In this document: positions 1-8,321 of the stretch, piece after piece
Layout: each line of letters starts with the position of its first letter
How positions within the stretch are numbered: position 1 is the stretch's first letter
Assembly (NCBI RefSeq): GCF_000337675.1
Contig: NZ_AOIB01000028.1
Span: 24,140 to 88,139 of the forward strand
Reading direction: 5' to 3'
Source: Natronococcus amylolyticus DSM 10524
GTDB lineage: Archaea; Halobacteriota; Halobacteria; Halobacteriales; Natrialbaceae
DNA: 64,000 bases
Translations under genes and position numbers: made by a program
The notes under the pieces: model-generated
The model's database searches: none
Told to the model about the DNA's origin: nothing
Seen by the model: the letters and a program-made list of their open reading frames with translations, nothing else

Positions 1-81
1 GTAGCTCTCGCTGAGCAGGTCTGCGAGCATCCTAACCAATTCACTCAACGACCTGCTCGTTTCTCAAACTGGCTCAACTAG
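1..81 (+). CDS. possible 3' end of an unidentified gene
   Basis: The first frame stays open from the window edge for 26 codons to a TAG at 79-81 and reads with plausible composition (many Gln, Arg and Asn). It may be the last part of a gene whose body lies outside the window. The family is not recognisable and the stretch is short enough to be open by chance. Confidence 0.22.
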   Translation, partial: VALAEQVCEHPNQFTQRPARFSNWLN

Positions 82-121
82 ACAGTGCCAATCGGAAAAA
101 TCCCTACGAGTCTCGCAAGTC

Positions 122-161
122 TAACCAACAGGGCCCTACTTGACCATCTCGATGTTGGTTA
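122..161. repeat. TAACCAAC...GTTGGTTA hairpin (copy 1)
   Basis: TAACCAAC (122-129) is the exact reverse complement of GTTGGTTA (154-161), with a 24-base loop. The same 8-bp arms, also followed by AC, begin the two long repeats at 12895 and 32611. Three copies with unrelated flanks suggest the subterminal hairpin of a small mobile element. Confidence 0.6.
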
Positions 162-201
162 ACCAAGAATCGTTCAGATATTGGTAGCGAACCTACATCA
201 C

Positions 202-312
202 ACCCCAGATTTCCGTCGTTTCGAACCAACCCCATGTTTCCGACGTAATTTTCAACCCCCCTCGTTTCCGTCGTTTCCGTCGTCTTCTCATACCCCACCC
301 CAGATTTCCGTC
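202..312 (-). other. cluster of four ORB-like origin repeats
   Basis: Four repeats of the form ACCCC(N)nTTTCCGNC lie at 202-217, 229-244, 255-272 and 297-312. The first and last are identical 16-mers (ACCCCAGATTTCCGTC), and an extra GTTTCCGTC half follows the third. On the minus strand each reads GACGGAAAY...GGGGT, the layout of haloarchaeal origin recognition boxes: a GGAAAC core plus a G-string bound by Orc1/Cdc6. All four point the same way. They lie just beyond the 3' end of an orc1/cdc6 relic, which strengthens the origin reading. No AT-rich unwinding tract flanked by inverted ORBs is obvious, so this may be half an origin or a dead one. Confidence 0.6.
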
Positions 313-337
313 GTCCACTCACCCATCAGGAGGGGAT

Positions 338-586
338 TTACTCACGCATCCAGCCCTGCATGCGACTGTCCTCGAGGATCGTTTCGCGGGCGATCTGGGG
401 ATCTTCGATGAGACGGTTTTGGAGATGAATCCCGCCCGCACTTCCCTTGTTGATCTTTTCAATTTCGACAACACCGAGGAACGGTTGTTCTTTCAGGATG
501 ACCCGGAACCGTCGCACGGACAGGATGTCGATATTTCGGTGATATCTGATCCGTTTGGCTGTTGGTCCACAGACATCCGATCGCAC
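338..586 (-). pseudogene. orc1/cdc6 C-terminal fragment (winged-helix domain)
   Basis: The 82-residue minus-strand reading carries the signature of the Orc1/Cdc6 C-terminal winged helix: ILSVRRFRVILKEQPFLGVV, then a Lys/Asn-rich wing with a SAGG turn, then LIEDPQIARETILEDSRM. In full-length Orc1/Cdc6 (about 400 residues) this domain reads the ORB DNA. The AAA+ ATPase domain is absent: reading upstream past about 600 gives stops and no Walker motifs. It is therefore a 3' relic. Its neighbour at 202-312 is an ORB-like cluster. The assignment rests on pattern recognition of the domain. Confidence 0.6.
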
Positions 587-1680: not shown

Positions 1681-1938
1681 CCATTCTGAGGCTCCACTAA
1701 TGAGCCTACTTCTCTCTGAGATCCTTATTTAGGCCTTATTCTGTACCAATAGAATAACAACACCATAAATAACGAAATCTTCACTGCCCGGCTTACAGAG
1801 ACTATCATATCATGCCAACTCCACTCTTCTCGACATACACATATGGCGAAAACCGAGTTACGTCGACACTCATGGCCACTACAGCATCTGCTCTCAAGGA
1901 GTAGTCCAGAGAACCCAAAACGCACCGTCAACACTCAG

Positions 1939-2196
1939 TTAGTACGGCTGGTCACCAGCAGGCGGTCGGAAGACCTCGCTTTCGGGATCATCCTCAGCCA
2001 GTATTCATTCGCCTTCAGCAACAAGCTGCTCAAACTCATCTCGCTCGTAGTCGTAGATCTGTCCAGGAGAGGGACCAACGAGACGGACTGAGTTGTCCCC
2101 AGCATTGAGCTCGTAGAACAACGGCTCATTTTCAGACTGTGGACCAAGGGCACCCTCCCAGTTCTCGATATCGGCGGTTGAATTCATATCAGACAT
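1939..2196 (-). pseudogene. acidic microprotein gene with in-frame stop
   Basis: ATG 2196 opens a 63-codon acidic reading (WEGALGPQSENEPLFYELN, then YDYERDEFEQLVAEGE) that stops at TGA 2005-2007. The same frame continues without another stop for 21 codons (ILAEDDPESEVFRPPAGDQPY) to TAA at 1939-1941, with the same acidic composition. The ancestor was probably about 85 residues and the TGA a point mutation. A functional 63-residue protein remains possible. The family is not recognised. Confidence 0.45.
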
Positions 2197-3300
2197 AGAG
2201 TACTCTACAGACTCTTCTGTGAAACCTTTTGTGTCCTTCTCAAGGCTCGAGATTCCGGTCCGTAGCCATCCATGACAGCTGCGTTCGAAGAAACTCGAGA
2301 ATGGGACAGCAGCCGGGACAGAACTGCCGCTCTCGCCAGTTGGGGGAATACCATCCCGTACTTACAATAGACTTGTTCTGCTGTTCGACTAGCGACTGTC
2401 TTGCTGTCTCATTTTACCGCTTTGGAAAACTCTGCAGCTATGCATTACACAAGCAACATACACTGCCGCCTGAGCGACCACATAAATATAGAAGTTTACA
2501 ATTGGGGCAAGTCTGTGGTGGCCTACAGTATACGAACTCACTTTCAGGCTTCACTTGACTCAGCTCAACCCCGATTCAATGTCGTCAAACTCATCACTCA
2601 ACCAATTCAGTGCTGCAACGATCACGCTGCCCTCGAGTGTTGGTTAGATTCAAGTGTATCGACAAATGGAGTACACTCACCAGGTCGTCGTACACGACGA
2701 GACCGTGTTTCGATCGACGGTGTCCAAATCAACCAGATTGAGTGCCCCTTTTCGCTTGTCAAACATAGCTACGGAAATTTCGCGGCCTGTCCAAACACGG
2801 CTTTGAACAGGCTGCTCACACATTTGGACTCATCTGCTCATTGAATTTCGCCGGAGCATCCCTCCTCAGCGTCATTGACCGCCTTGCCATGGAGGCATTC
2901 CACAGCCCTACATAAGAGCGACGGAAGCTCGAGAATAATGACGAAGCCTGGAACGTGATCTACCTCGGACAGTTCGAGTATGTCAATTGGTTCAAAGAGC
3001 GGCTTCCAGATACGAACGAAAATTGCCGAAAATCGATCCAGTCTAACCTTGAGCATCACGACGAGTACACTTGAACTGACGATTTTGATCTGATCATTTC
3101 ATATGCAGAAATCACGCGTGTTTGAAGTCGCTAAACTACTGGTAGTTTCCTCGGCAGAAACTCTTATCAGTGGAAAGTACGCCAACTGACGTATCTGGAG
3201 TTAGCATTTGCCTTATCAGATGCTATATGGATGAAGAAACCACAAGTTATGGATTCGAAAAATGTCTTTGAAGTCTTTCACTATCTGCGATATGCAGTTG
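2197..3300. other. gene-poor stretch, no convincing gene
   Basis: Open frames here (a 147-codon plus-strand one at 2401-2844 and a 73-codon minus-strand one at 2838-3059) lack haloarchaeal acidic composition and recognisable motifs. The sequence is less GC-rich than the operon that follows. It probably consists of decayed genes plus the upstream region of the kinase operon. Confidence 0.4.
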
Positions 3301-3337: not shown

Positions 3338-6300
3338 ATGGCGGATAAAACTCGGAACATACGGGGGGAGCTATCGTACCGGGAGATATTCCACGCTGTC
3401 AACGACGCGATCCTTGTTCACGACGCAAAGACGGGTACGATCCTTGACGCAAACCCAGCGGCTGAGCAGCTTTACGGCTACTCGAGAGCAGAGCTTCTGG
3501 AGATGGATATTGGGGAATTCAGCACTAATCAACCGGCGTACTCTCAGACAAGAGCTATCGAGCAGATTGACCGAGCCGTTCAGGAGGGCAACAACCGCTT
3601 CGAGTGGATGATCGAACGAAAGGATGGCACTGAGCGGACCGTTGACGTCAAACTCACTCGTGAAACTGTTCAGGAGGGGAACCTATTGCTTGCTGTTGTC
3701 CGGGACGTAACCGAAAGACGGGAAGCCGAACGGACTACTCGCCAGCTACGTGAGGCGGTTGAGAGTTCGATGGACGGGGTCGCAGTGCTGGACAATGTGG
3801 GTGAGTATGTCTATGTTAATGGAGCACACGCCGAGATGTACGGCTTTGACGACCCCGACAAGTTGATCGGCAAAAGTTGGCGGGCTATGTACACAGACGA
3901 AGAGATTGATCGGCTTGAACGCGAGGCGATGTCAACTATCGCTGCTGAAGGCGAGTGGCGCGGGGAGGCTACCGGACACCGGGTCGACGGTGAACACTTC
4001 CCACAGGAGGTCTCACTGACAGCACTCGACTCCGGCGGACTGATCTGTGTCGTCCGTGACGTCACGGAGCGAACGGAGATGACCGAACGGGTGCGAAAGA
4101 CTAGGAGGGAACTCCAGGCGGTTCTCGATAATACCCCCGCAGCTGTCTACAAGAAAGATTCGGAGGGACGGTATCAGTACGTCAACGGGTACTACGAGCG
4201 GCTATTCGATCGACCGGCTTCGGAGCTGATCGGCCGACTCCCCGTCGAAATCCATGGAGAGGAGATGGCGGAGATGATCACAGCCCACGATCAATACGTG
4301 ATCGAGAACGGCAAGGCGACGACTACCGAGGAGACGATCGAGATTGACGGTTCCCACCGAAGCTTTCTCACCTCGCGGATCCCACTATTCGACGACGGTG
4401 AACTCGATTTCCTCTACGGTATCGCTGTCGATATCACCGAACTGAAGGCTCGCGAACGGACGCTTCATGCGCTCAACGAGACGGCCACGGCGCTGGTCGG
4501 CGCACGTAACCGAGCGGAGGTCGCACAACTCGCCGTTGATACCGCAGAGGACGCCTTTTCGCTCCCGTTGGCGGGGGTGTGGGAATACGACGCCGAGGCA
4601 GAGGCACTCGTCCCGGTCGCTGAAACCGATCATTCGAGAGATATCGTTGGTGAGGCTCCGACATTCGAAGAGGGTACGAGCCTCGCATGGGAGGCCTTCA
4701 AGACCAGCCAGCCGCGATTTGTCGAAGATGTCTCTGGCGAATCCGATATGTTCAATCCTGAGACCTCAATCCGGAGCGAAATGGTGCTGCCGCTCGGTGA
4801 ATATGGAGTGTTACTGTGTGCGAGTACCAACGCCCAGACGTTCGACGATTACGAACGAGAGTTCGGCGCGACCCTCGCGGCGACCGTCCAGACAGCGCTA
4901 ACACGCATTGAACGCGAACGCGAACTCCGTCGACGCGAGCAGGTGTTACATTCGTTGACCGAGGTCGCGACGTCACTGATTGACGCGGAGACTGATGAAG
5001 AGACTGCAGAAATTGCGGTCGAGACCGCACAGGACGTCCTTAACCTGCCGCTCGCAGGTATTTGGCGCCACGAGTCCGACGAAGACGTACTCGCTCCGTT
5101 CGTCACAAGCTCGGGAGCGGAAGAAATCTTTGACAAACTCCCCACCTTCAAGGAAGGCCGGGGGCTGTCCTGGCGTGTGTTTACTTCGGGTCGGCCGGAG
5201 GTCTTTCGCGACGTAACTGACGAGGATGAGGTGTACGACCCCGAGACACCGCTTCGGAGTGAGATACTGCTGCCACTCGGCGAGCACGGAGTGTTCCTCT
5301 GTGGGACAGTCGAGCGGCGACGGTTCGACGAGTACGCCCTTGAGTTCGCGTCGATTCTCTCGACGATGACCGAAAGCGCTCTGACCAGTGCCGATCGTGA
5401 ACGCGAACTCAGAGAGCAACGCGAATTTACCGATCAACTCATTAGCACGCTTCCGGACCTGTTCTACGTCTTCGATACAACGAGTGGAACGTTTGTCCGA
5501 TGGAACGACCGCCTGACCGAACTGACGGGCTACTCCGATACCGAGGTTGAGACTACGAGTGTGACCGAGTTCGTCGCTGAGGCTGACGAAGCAACCCTCC
5601 TCGACGGATTGGAGAGCATTCTCAACGGAGAACCGACTACCATCGCTATCCACATCGTGGCGAGCGATGGTCGAGAGGTTCCTCACGAACTGACTGGCGC
5701 ACCCGTACGGGATCCCGATGGGGAGATTATTGGAGTGTGCGGGATCGGCCGCGACATCAGTGACCGCCTCGCCTACGAACGTGAACTCGAGCGGAAGAAC
5801 GCTCGTCTCGAGGAGTTCGCAAGCGTTGTTGCACACGACATCCGGAACCCGCTGACAGTCGCGACGGGCTACCTCGAACTGGCCCAGGAGGTCGGAGACG
5901 GAAGATATCTTGAGGAGGTCGAACGCGGGCTCGCCCGGACGGCCGAAATCACCGAGAACCTACTCACGCTTGCCCGTGCGGGCGAGGGAATCGGCGAGCG
6001 CGAGTCGATCGAGCTAGAGTCGCTCGCACGGAAGGCCTGGGAGAACGTTCGGACGTCGCGGGCACGGCTGTTAATCGAAGATGAGGTTGAGGTCGAAGGC
6101 GACCGCCTCCGGCTGACACAGCTCTTTGAGAACCTCTTTCGGAACGCAATCGAGCATGCTGGTGAGGACGTTACCATTTGCTTTGGTGCCCTCACGGAGG
6201 GATTCTACGTTGAGGATAATGGGTCGGGCATCCCCGAAGAACATCGGGCGGAGCTGTTTGTCACTCGCGAGTCCGATGGCAAGAACGCGCGGTTCGGGCT

Positions 6301-6445
6301 CGCAATCGTCAGCGATATCGTTGAGGCACATGGGTGGGAAATAGCTGTAACCAATGGGGATAACGGCGGTGCGCGATTCGAGATCGAGACACAGAGTCAG
6401 GTACAGCTTGAGACGGACCCGATCGAATCGGGTAGACAGCGATGA
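3338..6445 (+). CDS. multi-sensor histidine kinase (PAS x3, GAF x2, PAS, HisKA, HATPase)
   Basis: A soluble sensor kinase of 1035 residues with no membrane segment. PAS domains lie at about 10-130, 135-250 and 255-370. Two GAF domains that are recent duplicates of each other follow (about 375-530 and 535-690; both contain LPLAG and a PLGE.GV.LC segment), then a fourth PAS (about 695-810). The HisKA H-box VVAHDIRNPL places the phospho-acceptor at His833. The ATPase domain keeps the N-box (LFENLFRNAIEHAG) and VEDNGSGIP, but its last glycine motif is weak (ARFGLAIV). The stop overlaps the next start (ATGA at 6442-6445), so it is translationally coupled to the following signalling gene. It probably senses a cytoplasmic redox, light or small-molecule signal and phosphorylates one of the downstream receivers. 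Confidence 0.93.
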   Translation: MADKTRNIRGELSYREIFHAVNDAILVHDAKTGTILDANPAAEQLYGYSRAELLEMDIGEFSTNQPAYSQTRAIEQIDRAVQEGNNRFEWMIERKDGTERTVDVKLTRETVQEGNLLLAVVRDVTERREAERTTRQLREAVESSMDGVAVLDNVGEYVYVNGAHAEMYGFDDPDKLIGKSWRAMYTDEEIDRLEREAMSTIAAEGEWRGEATGHRVDGEHFPQEVSLTALDSGGLICVVRDVTERTEMTERVRKTRRELQAVLDNTPAAVYKKDSEGRYQYVNGYYERLFDRPASELIGRLPVEIHGEEMAEMITAHDQYVIENGKATTTEETIEIDGSHRSFLTSRIPLFDDGELDFLYGIAVDITELKARERTLHALNETATALVGARNRAEVAQLAVDTAEDAFSLPLAGVWEYDAEAEALVPVAETDHSRDIVGEAPTFEEGTSLAWEAFKTSQPRFVEDVSGESDMFNPETSIRSEMVLPLGEYGVLLCASTNAQTFDDYEREFGATLAATVQTALTRIERERELRRREQVLHSLTEVATSLIDAETDEETAEIAVETAQDVLNLPLAGIWRHESDEDVLAPFVTSSGAEEIFDKLPTFKEGRGLSWRVFTSGRPEVFRDVTDEDEVYDPETPLRSEILLPLGEHGVFLCGTVERRRFDEYALEFASILSTMTESALTSADRERELREQREFTDQLISTLPDLFYVFDTTSGTFVRWNDRLTELTGYSDTEVETTSVTEFVAEADEATLLDGLESILNGEPTTIAIHIVASDGREVPHELTGAPVRDPDGEIIGVCGIGRDISDRLAYERELERKNARLEEFASVVAHDIRNPLTVATGYLELAQEVGDGRYLEEVERGLARTAEITENLLTLARAGEGIGERESIELESLARKAWENVRTSRARLLIEDEVEVEGDRLRLTQLFENLFRNAIEHAGEDVTICFGALTEGFYVEDNGSGIPEEHRAELFVTRESDGKNARFGLAIVSDIVEAHGWEIAVTNGDNGGARFEIETQSQVQLETDPIESGRQR

Positions 6446-7953
6446 CGGGACCGTCGGACGCAGACGATCCCCGTATTGACACCCTCCACGGGGTAGCGCT
6501 CGACCTGGCTCGCTGCCAGAGTGAGACCGCTGTCTACGACGCGGCGATCGCCGGAAGCCACGAGCTGTTCGATGTCAAGCAGGTGGTGGTCATGCTCCGC
6601 CGAGACGATAGGTGGGTATCGATCACCCACCCCGACAGGACAACAGGCACCCCCCCGCTACCGATCACGGGAACGATGGTGGAGACGACGATCGAACGAG
6701 AGGAAACGGTCACTGTTGAGGCAATTGGGGAGGTAGCCGGCGAACACCACCCCTTCGCCGACGGGACGGCGCTGTGTGTCCCATTTGGGGACAAAGGCAT
6801 CCTCCAGCTTATCGGAAGAGACGTGTTCGACGACGAGGCGGTCCAATATGTGGAGCTGCTCTCGTTTCTTGCGAGCGCACGGCTGGCCCAACTCTCTCTC
6901 TCCGACGAGGTCGACGTGATTGGCGACCGGTTCGACGCGCTCACATCGTTTCACCGTGACGCACTCGAACGTGCCTCTCACGAACTCAGGACGCCGCTTA
7001 CCTCTATTATTGGCTATATGGAGCTGGTCTTGGAAGAGGACGTTGGCACGCTGGGCGAGGACCAGGAGGAGCTGCTCAAATTCGTTTATCGGAAGGCAAC
7101 CGAACTCGAAGCCGCGGTTGAGACCCTGACAACAACATTCGACGACGCCCTAGACGTCGCCCTCGAGGACGCCGCTAATTCAACTCGATTGGGAGCACTC
7201 GTCGGCTCGGGATCGATCTTGCTCATCGAGTCCAAAAGCGACGTCACGCCGTTGCTCGCCGACCGCCTCCGGGCGACCGGCTACCGCGTTCGGATCGCAG
7301 AGAGCGCGGCTGAGGCGGAGGTGGCCATCACCGAGGAACCGCCGGCGGTGCTCGTCATGGATTGGTTCGTTGGGGACGAAAATGGGCTCGCACTCGCACG
7401 ACGGTTGAATGAGCGGTGTAACGAGGAACTTCCGGTTGCCCTCCTCTCGATTGTCGCCGACGAGTCGAACGGAGAGTCACAATTAGGGGTCTCTGCGGTT
7501 ACCGACGGTGATTTCGATACAGCTATGACGGTCGGTAAACATTTCATCGATATGGAACGATGTGACGACGTCGACCTCCTCGTCGTCGGATCTGTTGAGA
7601 GCCATGGCAATGAGGACCGGTCATCGGCTGTTGACGTGACGCAGGTCGTAGGTCGGGAGGCCGCAATCGAGGCCCACTGCGAGCGCGGGTACGACTTCGC
7701 AATCGTCGCCGCGACAGGGGACGCACGGACCGACTGCAAGACAGTTGCCGCCCTTCGCGAGCGGCGCTGCGGCCGACGGATGCCAGTCGTTCTTGTAGAT
7801 CCCGACGCTGGTGGAACGTGGTACACGGTCGGGGGCAGATTGTTCGTCCAGCGGCCGCTCAATGTCACCGACCTAACGGCAGCCCTGATCAGTGCATGTC
7901 CGGGCCCACACGACCTGCGGTCACCTGATCAACAGACTGGGGGTTTGACATGA
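6442..7953 (+). CDS. GAF-HisKA-receiver hybrid protein lacking an ATPase domain
   Basis: This 503-residue protein has a GAF-like domain (about 15-160), a complete HisKA segment with H-box ERASHELRTPLTSIIGYMEL (His180), and then no HATPase_c. The region after the dimerisation helices goes straight into a receiver domain (about 255-345; SILLIESKSDV, phospho-acceptor Asp307 in VLVMDWF). A divergent second receiver-like half (about 375-490) ends with PVVLVDPDAGG and an RPLNVTDL motif. It cannot autophosphorylate alone. It may serve as a phosphotransfer or scaffold partner for the upstream kinase. It overlaps both neighbours by 4 bases (ATGA), so the stoichiometry is likely fixed. Confidence 0.85.
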   Translation: MTGPSDADDPRIDTLHGVALDLARCQSETAVYDAAIAGSHELFDVKQVVVMLRRDDRWVSITHPDRTTGTPPLPITGTMVETTIEREETVTVEAIGEVAGEHHPFADGTALCVPFGDKGILQLIGRDVFDDEAVQYVELLSFLASARLAQLSLSDEVDVIGDRFDALTSFHRDALERASHELRTPLTSIIGYMELVLEEDVGTLGEDQEELLKFVYRKATELEAAVETLTTTFDDALDVALEDAANSTRLGALVGSGSILLIESKSDVTPLLADRLRATGYRVRIAESAAEAEVAITEEPPAVLVMDWFVGDENGLALARRLNERCNEELPVALLSIVADESNGESQLGVSAVTDGDFDTAMTVGKHFIDMERCDDVDLLVVGSVESHGNEDRSSAVDVTQVVGREAAIEAHCERGYDFAIVAATGDARTDCKTVAALRERRCGRRMPVVLVDPDAGGTWYTVGGRLFVQRPLNVTDLTAALISACPGPHDLRSPDQQTGGLT

Positions 7954-8321
7954 ACCGGACCGCAGTACTCGCGGAGGACGACGAAGATATCAGACAGCTA
8001 CTTTCGTTCAAACTTGATCGAGGCGGCTTCAACGTTGAGGGATTTGTGGACGGCCAGGCCTGTCTCGACCACCTCCACGAGCGAGAGGACCTCCCCGACG
8101 TGGTTGTCCTCGACGTGATGATGCCGCGGATGGATGGGTTCCAAGTCCTTGAGCGAATCCGAGACGATGACGCGCTCGCGGACGTTCCGGTTCTGATGCT
8201 TACGGCCCGCTCACGCGAGGAGGATGTTGTTGAGGGCTTCGAACGGGGTGCGACCGACTACGTCACGAAGCCATTCAGTCCTAACGAGGTCATCGCACGC
8301 ATTGAGCGGCTCATCGGCTAA
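7950..8321 (+). CDS. single-domain response regulator (CheY-like)
   Basis: The whole 123-residue protein is one receiver domain. AEDDED supplies the acidic pocket, VVLDVMMPRMDG the phospho-acceptor Asp55, MLTAR the switch Thr, and YVTKPF the conserved Lys107. There is no output domain, so it must act by binding another protein. The nearest candidates are the HEAT-like membrane protein and the glycosyltransferase encoded directly downstream. The start overlaps the previous stop (ATGA), and its TAA overlaps the next ATG (TAATG). Confidence 0.95.
   Translation: MNRTAVLAEDDEDIRQLLSFKLDRGGFNVEGFVDGQACLDHLHEREDLPDVVVLDVMMPRMDGFQVLERIRDDDALADVPVLMLTARSREEDVVEGFERGATDYVTKPFSPNEVIARIERLIG

Follow-up and report, generated by a model that had tools for sequence, protein, structure and literature searches.

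The four initiator boxes and the orc/cdc6 fragment near the left end of the window (the whole stretch analysed, 64,000 nucleotides of contig C28 of Natronococcus amylolyticus DSM 10524) are very probably the 5′-truncated remnant of an Orc4-type plasmid replicator that has been reduced to its restraining array, in other words an ordinary relic with no working origin. A first-pass annotation of this DNA had recognized the orc1/cdc6 gene of a plasmid-type replicator, broken but still accompanied by ORBs, and the matches to Orc4 plasmids together with the array bear this out. It had further taken the boxes for a dormant or partial origin, which does not agree with the organization of intact orc4 loci described below.

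The 82-residue frame at 338-586 is real as an open reading frame, although the first ten or so residues (556-586) are not Orc sequence. The Pfam profile Cdc6_C matches the fragment with 19.4 bits (E 0.0011), which misses the curated cut-off of 25.1 and covers half of the profile, so that the family call is weak by Pfam alone. The comparison with Orc1/Cdc6 proteins that the first-pass annotation had proposed is more telling: residues 11-82 share mostly 79-83% identity with annotated haloarchaeal plasmid Orc4 proteins, and by this direct comparison the Orc4 identity of the fragment is unambiguous. In a search of 72,556 plasmid records, 51 match the fragment, 27 of them with a query coverage of 80% or more; on genome contigs, there are 36 loci related to it. 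The nearest relatives, G001 (90%) and G007 (89%), belong to the same genus and are suggested to be Natronococcus jeotgali and Natronococcus sp. AD-5.

DNA homology to the orc4 relatives goes no further than 555/556 in any of them, and the sequence there is gap-free. About 340 codons of orc4 are missing at the locus, along with the upstream half of the replicator; no intact orc/cdc6 gene adjoins the boxes, and the last 72 or so codons alone survive. Judged by its sequence, the fragment would be a piece of an Orc1/Cdc6 family member and not a working member. The DNA past the break (557-1240) has no plasmid match besides 70% identity to part of an HTH gene, and gives nothing useful within the genus.

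The four repeats lie on the minus strand of the window, all in one direction 5′ to 3′, and span 201-314 (Table 1). Four co-oriented repeats had been noticed before, two of them as identical 16-mers; the identity of the outermost pair in fact extends over 19 nt. They are several same-direction ORBs placed just 3′ of an orc stop codon, with 23 nt from the stop to the nearest box instead of the 26-base gap claimed earlier. The consensus ACGWCGGAAAYNNGGGGK has four exact matches in the 64-kb window, every one of them inside this cluster, and nine when up to three mismatches are allowed, where shuffles give an expectation of 3.84. Over the 4.4 Mb of the whole genome, eight sites match the pattern GACGGAAAYNNGGGGT with up to one mismatch: the four in the cluster and four lone, scattered sites. 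The repeats are thus not common at random in the genome, a possibility that the first-pass annotation had raised against its own reading. Chance repeats are ruled out by the genome and shuffle counts and by the lack of any match to reversed-pattern controls. When the repeats are compared with a box profile, as had also been proposed, all four match: a position weight matrix (PWM) built from 266 boxes, with a median score of 30.9, gives the relic boxes full scores of 27.5-30.7. An extra half-box like the one at 274-283 is also present in the array on contig C60 of G001 (L113).

Table 1. Features at and near the orc4 relic, in window coordinates
Feature	Position	Strand	Basis
Insertion-element end, IS6 family, terminal sequence AACTAGACAGTGCC	1..89	-	Annotation of related plasmid
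Flank past the array, common to G007 (L111), G001 C112 (L110) and the orphan array of G001 C60 (L113)	150..200	-	Matches begin at 150-163
Orc4-type box ACGACGGAAATCTGGGGTG, outermost from gene	201..219	-	Repeat and PWM comparison
Orc4-type box ACGTCGGAAACATGGGGTT	228..246	-	Repeat and PWM comparison
Orc4-type box ACGACGGAAACGAGGGGGG	256..274	-	Repeat and PWM comparison
Half-box ACGACGGAAA, G-string missing	274..283	-	Sequence inspection
Orc4-type box adjoining gene	296..314	-	19-nt identity with box 201-219
orc4 C-terminal ~72 codons and stop, winged-helix domain	338..555	-	Pfam, Orc4 protein and DNA homology
Non-homologous extension supplying a chance start codon to the relic ORF	556..586	-	DNA homology limit
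Small gene region fragment, ORF 2005-2196	1913..2243	-	83% identity over 137 and 160 nt

The architecture of related orc4 loci was read from a sample of 37, made up of 35 loci from named genomes (L024-L058) together with L112 and L117; L110 (on the same contig as L026), L111 (truncated) and L059 (a fragment with a 40-residue match) were left out of the count. Downstream boxes lie within 800 bp of the orc4 stop in 36 of the 37 loci and number three or more in 33, the exception being L051, where the downstream boxes start 940 nt after the stop. All of these downstream boxes (147/147) are co-oriented, in the orientation that the relic boxes have as well. Upstream of the gene, inverted boxes are found in 35 of 35 full-length loci, flanking a central segment with a median length of 302 nt that is not markedly AT-rich (A+T about 51%). 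The array of the window is nearly letter-for-letter equal to the sequence 3′ of intact orc4 stops, and its four boxes correspond to the downstream array of an orc4 gene, with the origin half absent.

Around the relic, there are no inverted ORBs flanking an unwinding segment of the kind found upstream of the gene in all 35 full-length loci. The reading as a partial origin is ruled out by this architecture, because the origin of the relatives sits upstream of orc4, in the part that is absent here, and what survives is the downstream, co-oriented array. Box clusters 3′ of an orc gene are readily mistaken for origins, and the map needs correcting in this respect: in the Orc4 family, the origin sits at the opposite end of the gene.

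The link between this type of box and Orc4 holds across genomes. Within the family, a co-oriented box pair is present in 25 of the 27 genomes with Orc4 versus 3 of the 98 without (125 genomes); within the order, the corresponding numbers are 49 of 52 with full-length Orc4 versus 6 of 340 without (392 genomes). Reversed-pattern controls gave 0/125 and 0/392. The six order genomes that have the pair without a full-length Orc4 match are the window's own genome, G067 (an array without Orc4), G270 (a truncated Orc4 with an array), G072, G351 and G199. Two of these were counted as lacking Orc4 at the order level while their orc4 is cut by the contig (G072) or their boxes lie at a contig end (G351). 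G199 has the same box type 3′ of an Orc just 53% identical to Orc4, so that the box type, specific as it is to the adjacent Orc family by PWM score and by genome association, is not wholly exclusive to Orc4.

Boxes are present in 51 of the 52 order genomes with full-length Orc4: 49 by the strict pair pattern, a count taken from pattern matches with place-by-place reading for a part of them, and G164 and G093 by locus reading. G247, an Orc4 genome without the strict pair, has no downstream boxes on direct reading. G018 and one pair in G101 read CTATACAGCGGAAAC, which resembles the repeats beside the Orc on contig C5 of the window's genome; they were still counted as matches.

In an intact system, the inverted boxes around the segment of about 300 nt upstream of orc4 would be the place where Orc4 opens the DNA, and the downstream same-direction set would bind surplus Orc4 and restrain firing. 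Both roles are proposed by analogy with oriC2D of Haloarcula hispanica, which belongs to another Orc. By this analogy, the relic would keep the restraining part of the replicator and would have lost the part that starts replication. oriC2D is described as the boxes downstream of cdc6E, 11 boxes in 722 bp, at a locus where the gene is intact and the origin live; it showed neither origin nor autonomous replication activity, and its deletion was not obtained (PMC3936714). oriC2D restrains the origin, which its authors attribute to titration of Cdc6E; in the same accounts, the number of downstream boxes is linked to plasmid concentration in H. hispanica, and downstream boxes are noted for numerous further origins predicted in haloarchaea (PMC3936714; PMC3528665). 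Like oriC2D as described, the relic has initiator boxes clustered directly 3′ of an orc/cdc6 gene, apart from the upstream origin; unlike oriC2D, with its 11 boxes, intact gene and live origin, it has four boxes, a truncated gene, no origin and another Orc (PMC3936714).

A full counterpart within the Orc4 family is plasmid pNRC200 of Halobacterium salinarum (NC_002608.1, orc4 VNG_RS11810; L117), whose C-terminal protein is 85% identical over 67 residues and whose four same-direction downstream boxes match those of the relic in spacing. In contrast to the relic, pNRC200 has a full orc4 and inverted upstream boxes.

The genome has 15 matches to Cdc6_C, relic included. No Orc4 orthologue was found in the 44-contig draft, in which the closest paralogue has 51% identity and none of the matches attains 1e-200. 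A PWM scan around the 14 other Orc hits found no such array, the best being a lone, weak site that scores 14.1 against the 27.5-30.7 of the relic boxes; candidate distinct repeats are found beside the Orcs of contigs C13, C5 and C20. By these searches, the relic array has no recognizable partner in this draft genome. Since the draft lacks the origin half, the greater part of the initiator gene and any second Orc4, the array would have no partner made by the cell and would probably have no function today. An Orc4 replicon that is absent from the 44 contigs may yet be present in the cell, and in view of the box use in G199 a resident paralogue might bind the relic boxes.

Outside the window, at about 109 kb on C28 and 84 kb away from the relic, is a complete-looking orc/origin cassette with a different box, CACCGGAAANNNGGTGT (C28:108844-109152, L100). 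Its Orc has one reverse and two forward boxes on the 5′ side and four forward boxes 3′ of the gene. From this layout, the cassette is likely to be a live origin of contig C28, and its presence would be consistent with one replicator having replaced another.

The relic differs from the intact gene of G001 by 8 synonymous and 13 nonsynonymous changes over 73 codons, whereas L024 differs from G001 by 23 synonymous and 3 nonsynonymous codon differences; the constraint on the protein thus seems to be gone or relaxed. Out of 215 coding sites, 14 carry a change specific to the relic, and 7 of these 14 fall within the 30 nt adjoining the break; such changes affect 2 spacer sites out of 54 and no box site out of 76. 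The difference between boxes and coding sites gives a Fisher P of 0.024, which rises to 0.11 when the 30 nt adjoining the break are omitted, in a comparison of three sequences, and the boxes have possibly been retained by selection.

Headless or initiator-free Orc4 arrays are found in four other places, five with that of the window, and none of them has a full-length gene adjoining. The window locus is thus a further case of a recurring arrangement. In the plasmid of Natronococcus sp. AD-5 (G007, L111; name inferred), the Orc4 is 5′-truncated like that of the relic, with the C-terminal 191 residues (222-412) and a four-box array but no upstream boxes; a full-length orc4 is about 14 kb away. 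Halarchaeum nitratireducens (G270/L134, L038; name inferred) similarly has 260 residues of the Orc4 C-terminus (153-412) and an intact four-box array, with the upstream boxes absent. Both protein remnants are longer than that of the relic. G001 C60 has four boxes and G067 C91 has three, in each case with no orc4. In a limited search of the literature on haloarchaeal origin remnants, plasmid integration and Cdc6/ORB titration, headless arrays were not found described.

Other states of the replicator were seen along the way. On G067 C91 (L119), the three Orc4-type boxes (3027-3169) have a different Orc gene (38% identical) on one side and a putative ParA-like gene on the other. In L139 (G164), orc4 has one internal stop and two boxes of the array at 3545-3646 are damaged; this array decays along with its gene, in contrast to the intact relic array of the window. 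G225 carries two copies of the entire Orc4 replicator region on contig C5 (L135 and L138, 99.87% identity over about 10 kb), and in one copy the Orc4 match is split into residues 3-116 and 117-412, which suggests a frameshift.

Recurrence of headless arrays, and the fact that all four relic boxes are intact with none of 76 sites changed, would be expected of a retained decoy that still binds an Orc protein, be it a resident paralogue or Orc4 from incoming plasmids, and thereby lowers the replication of Orc4 plasmids, a form of incompatibility. We consider such a decoy unlikely. The conservation of the boxes loses its significance (P = 0.11) when the 30 nt adjoining the break are excluded, and three sequences stand behind it; the genomes of G001 and G007 carry Orc4, so that their orphan arrays may be duplicates; and C60 and C91 are short contigs of 5.4 and 6.1 kb. 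The broader idea that a headless array is a separable unit, outliving its gene and titrating plasmid Orc4, whether the plasmid is resident or incoming, is improbable to the same degree. If true, a decoy would give its carrier control over Orc4 plasmids, or the means to exclude them. The asymmetry between the 51 of 52 Orc4 genomes with boxes and the five arrays without a full-length gene fits an array that is required by a live origin, and the same asymmetry offers a way to test the idea of titration in a second Orc family.

Less probable still is a dormant partial origin that could fire with Orc4 supplied in trans. The boxes do score fully against the Orc4 consensus (27.5-30.7, median 30.9), but the inverted pair and the upstream segment that 35 of 35 full-length relatives possess are absent, and the downstream array of H. 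hispanica oriC2 is itself described as having no origin activity (PMC3936714). It is equally far-fetched that an intact gene was cut through misassembly. Scaffold Ns with repeated IS sequence do lie close by, at -837, -507, -475 and 0, but the break at 555 contains no N, nor does any position from 1 to 64000, so that the break is not a scaffold join; moreover, the missing 5′ part is not found anywhere in the assembly as Orc4-like sequence, and the relic has nonsynonymous changes of its own. A truncated remnant of an Orc4 replicator thus remains by far the preferred explanation.

The DNA around this remnant fits a rearranged, plasmid-like region. The array is separated by 111 nt from an insertion element that ends at 89. 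Its 89-nt end has an exact repeat beyond the scaffold N just left of the window, with three copies within about 1 kb. The single-N scaffold joins (C28:24139, 23664, 23632 and 23302) are inside repeated IS6-type sequence, which makes order and copy number there doubtful and the left junction untrustworthy. The 8 nt following the right end of the element, which a target-site duplication would repeat, were not found on its left side, where the scaffold N robs this result of weight. In G007, a homologue of the region 1913-2243 lies about 118 nt from the Orc4 array, and on G001 C60 one is likewise found near the array; relative to both, the region is inverted here and on the opposite side of the relic. 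The product of 2005-2196 has no plasmid match at the protein level.

Insertion elements and rearrangement nearby would be the likely cause of the truncation. A comparable case is oriC3-cdc6D of Haloarcula, a replicator damaged within a transposase-rich variable region; it is described as disrupted by a putative transposase, whereas the relic is without its origin half and has the downstream array left (PMC4441112). None of the 45 tRNA genes is on the 408-kb contig C28 (P = 0.013, from length alone), and its G+C content is about 43-61% in the first 88 kb and 65-66% at 150 and 220 kb. C28 may be a megaplasmid or a chromosome with an island, and the relic possibly marks the integration of a replicon. 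To the left of the window, past the scaffold joins, cas genes are found on the minus strand (C28:11283-18089, L060; Cas3 and Cas5 by Pfam), adjoined by large ORFs. Within the window, 3338-8321 holds a gene for a large multi-PAS/GAF histidine kinase (by Pfam), followed by ORFs for a putative further kinase and response regulator, with a G+C content above that of the surroundings.
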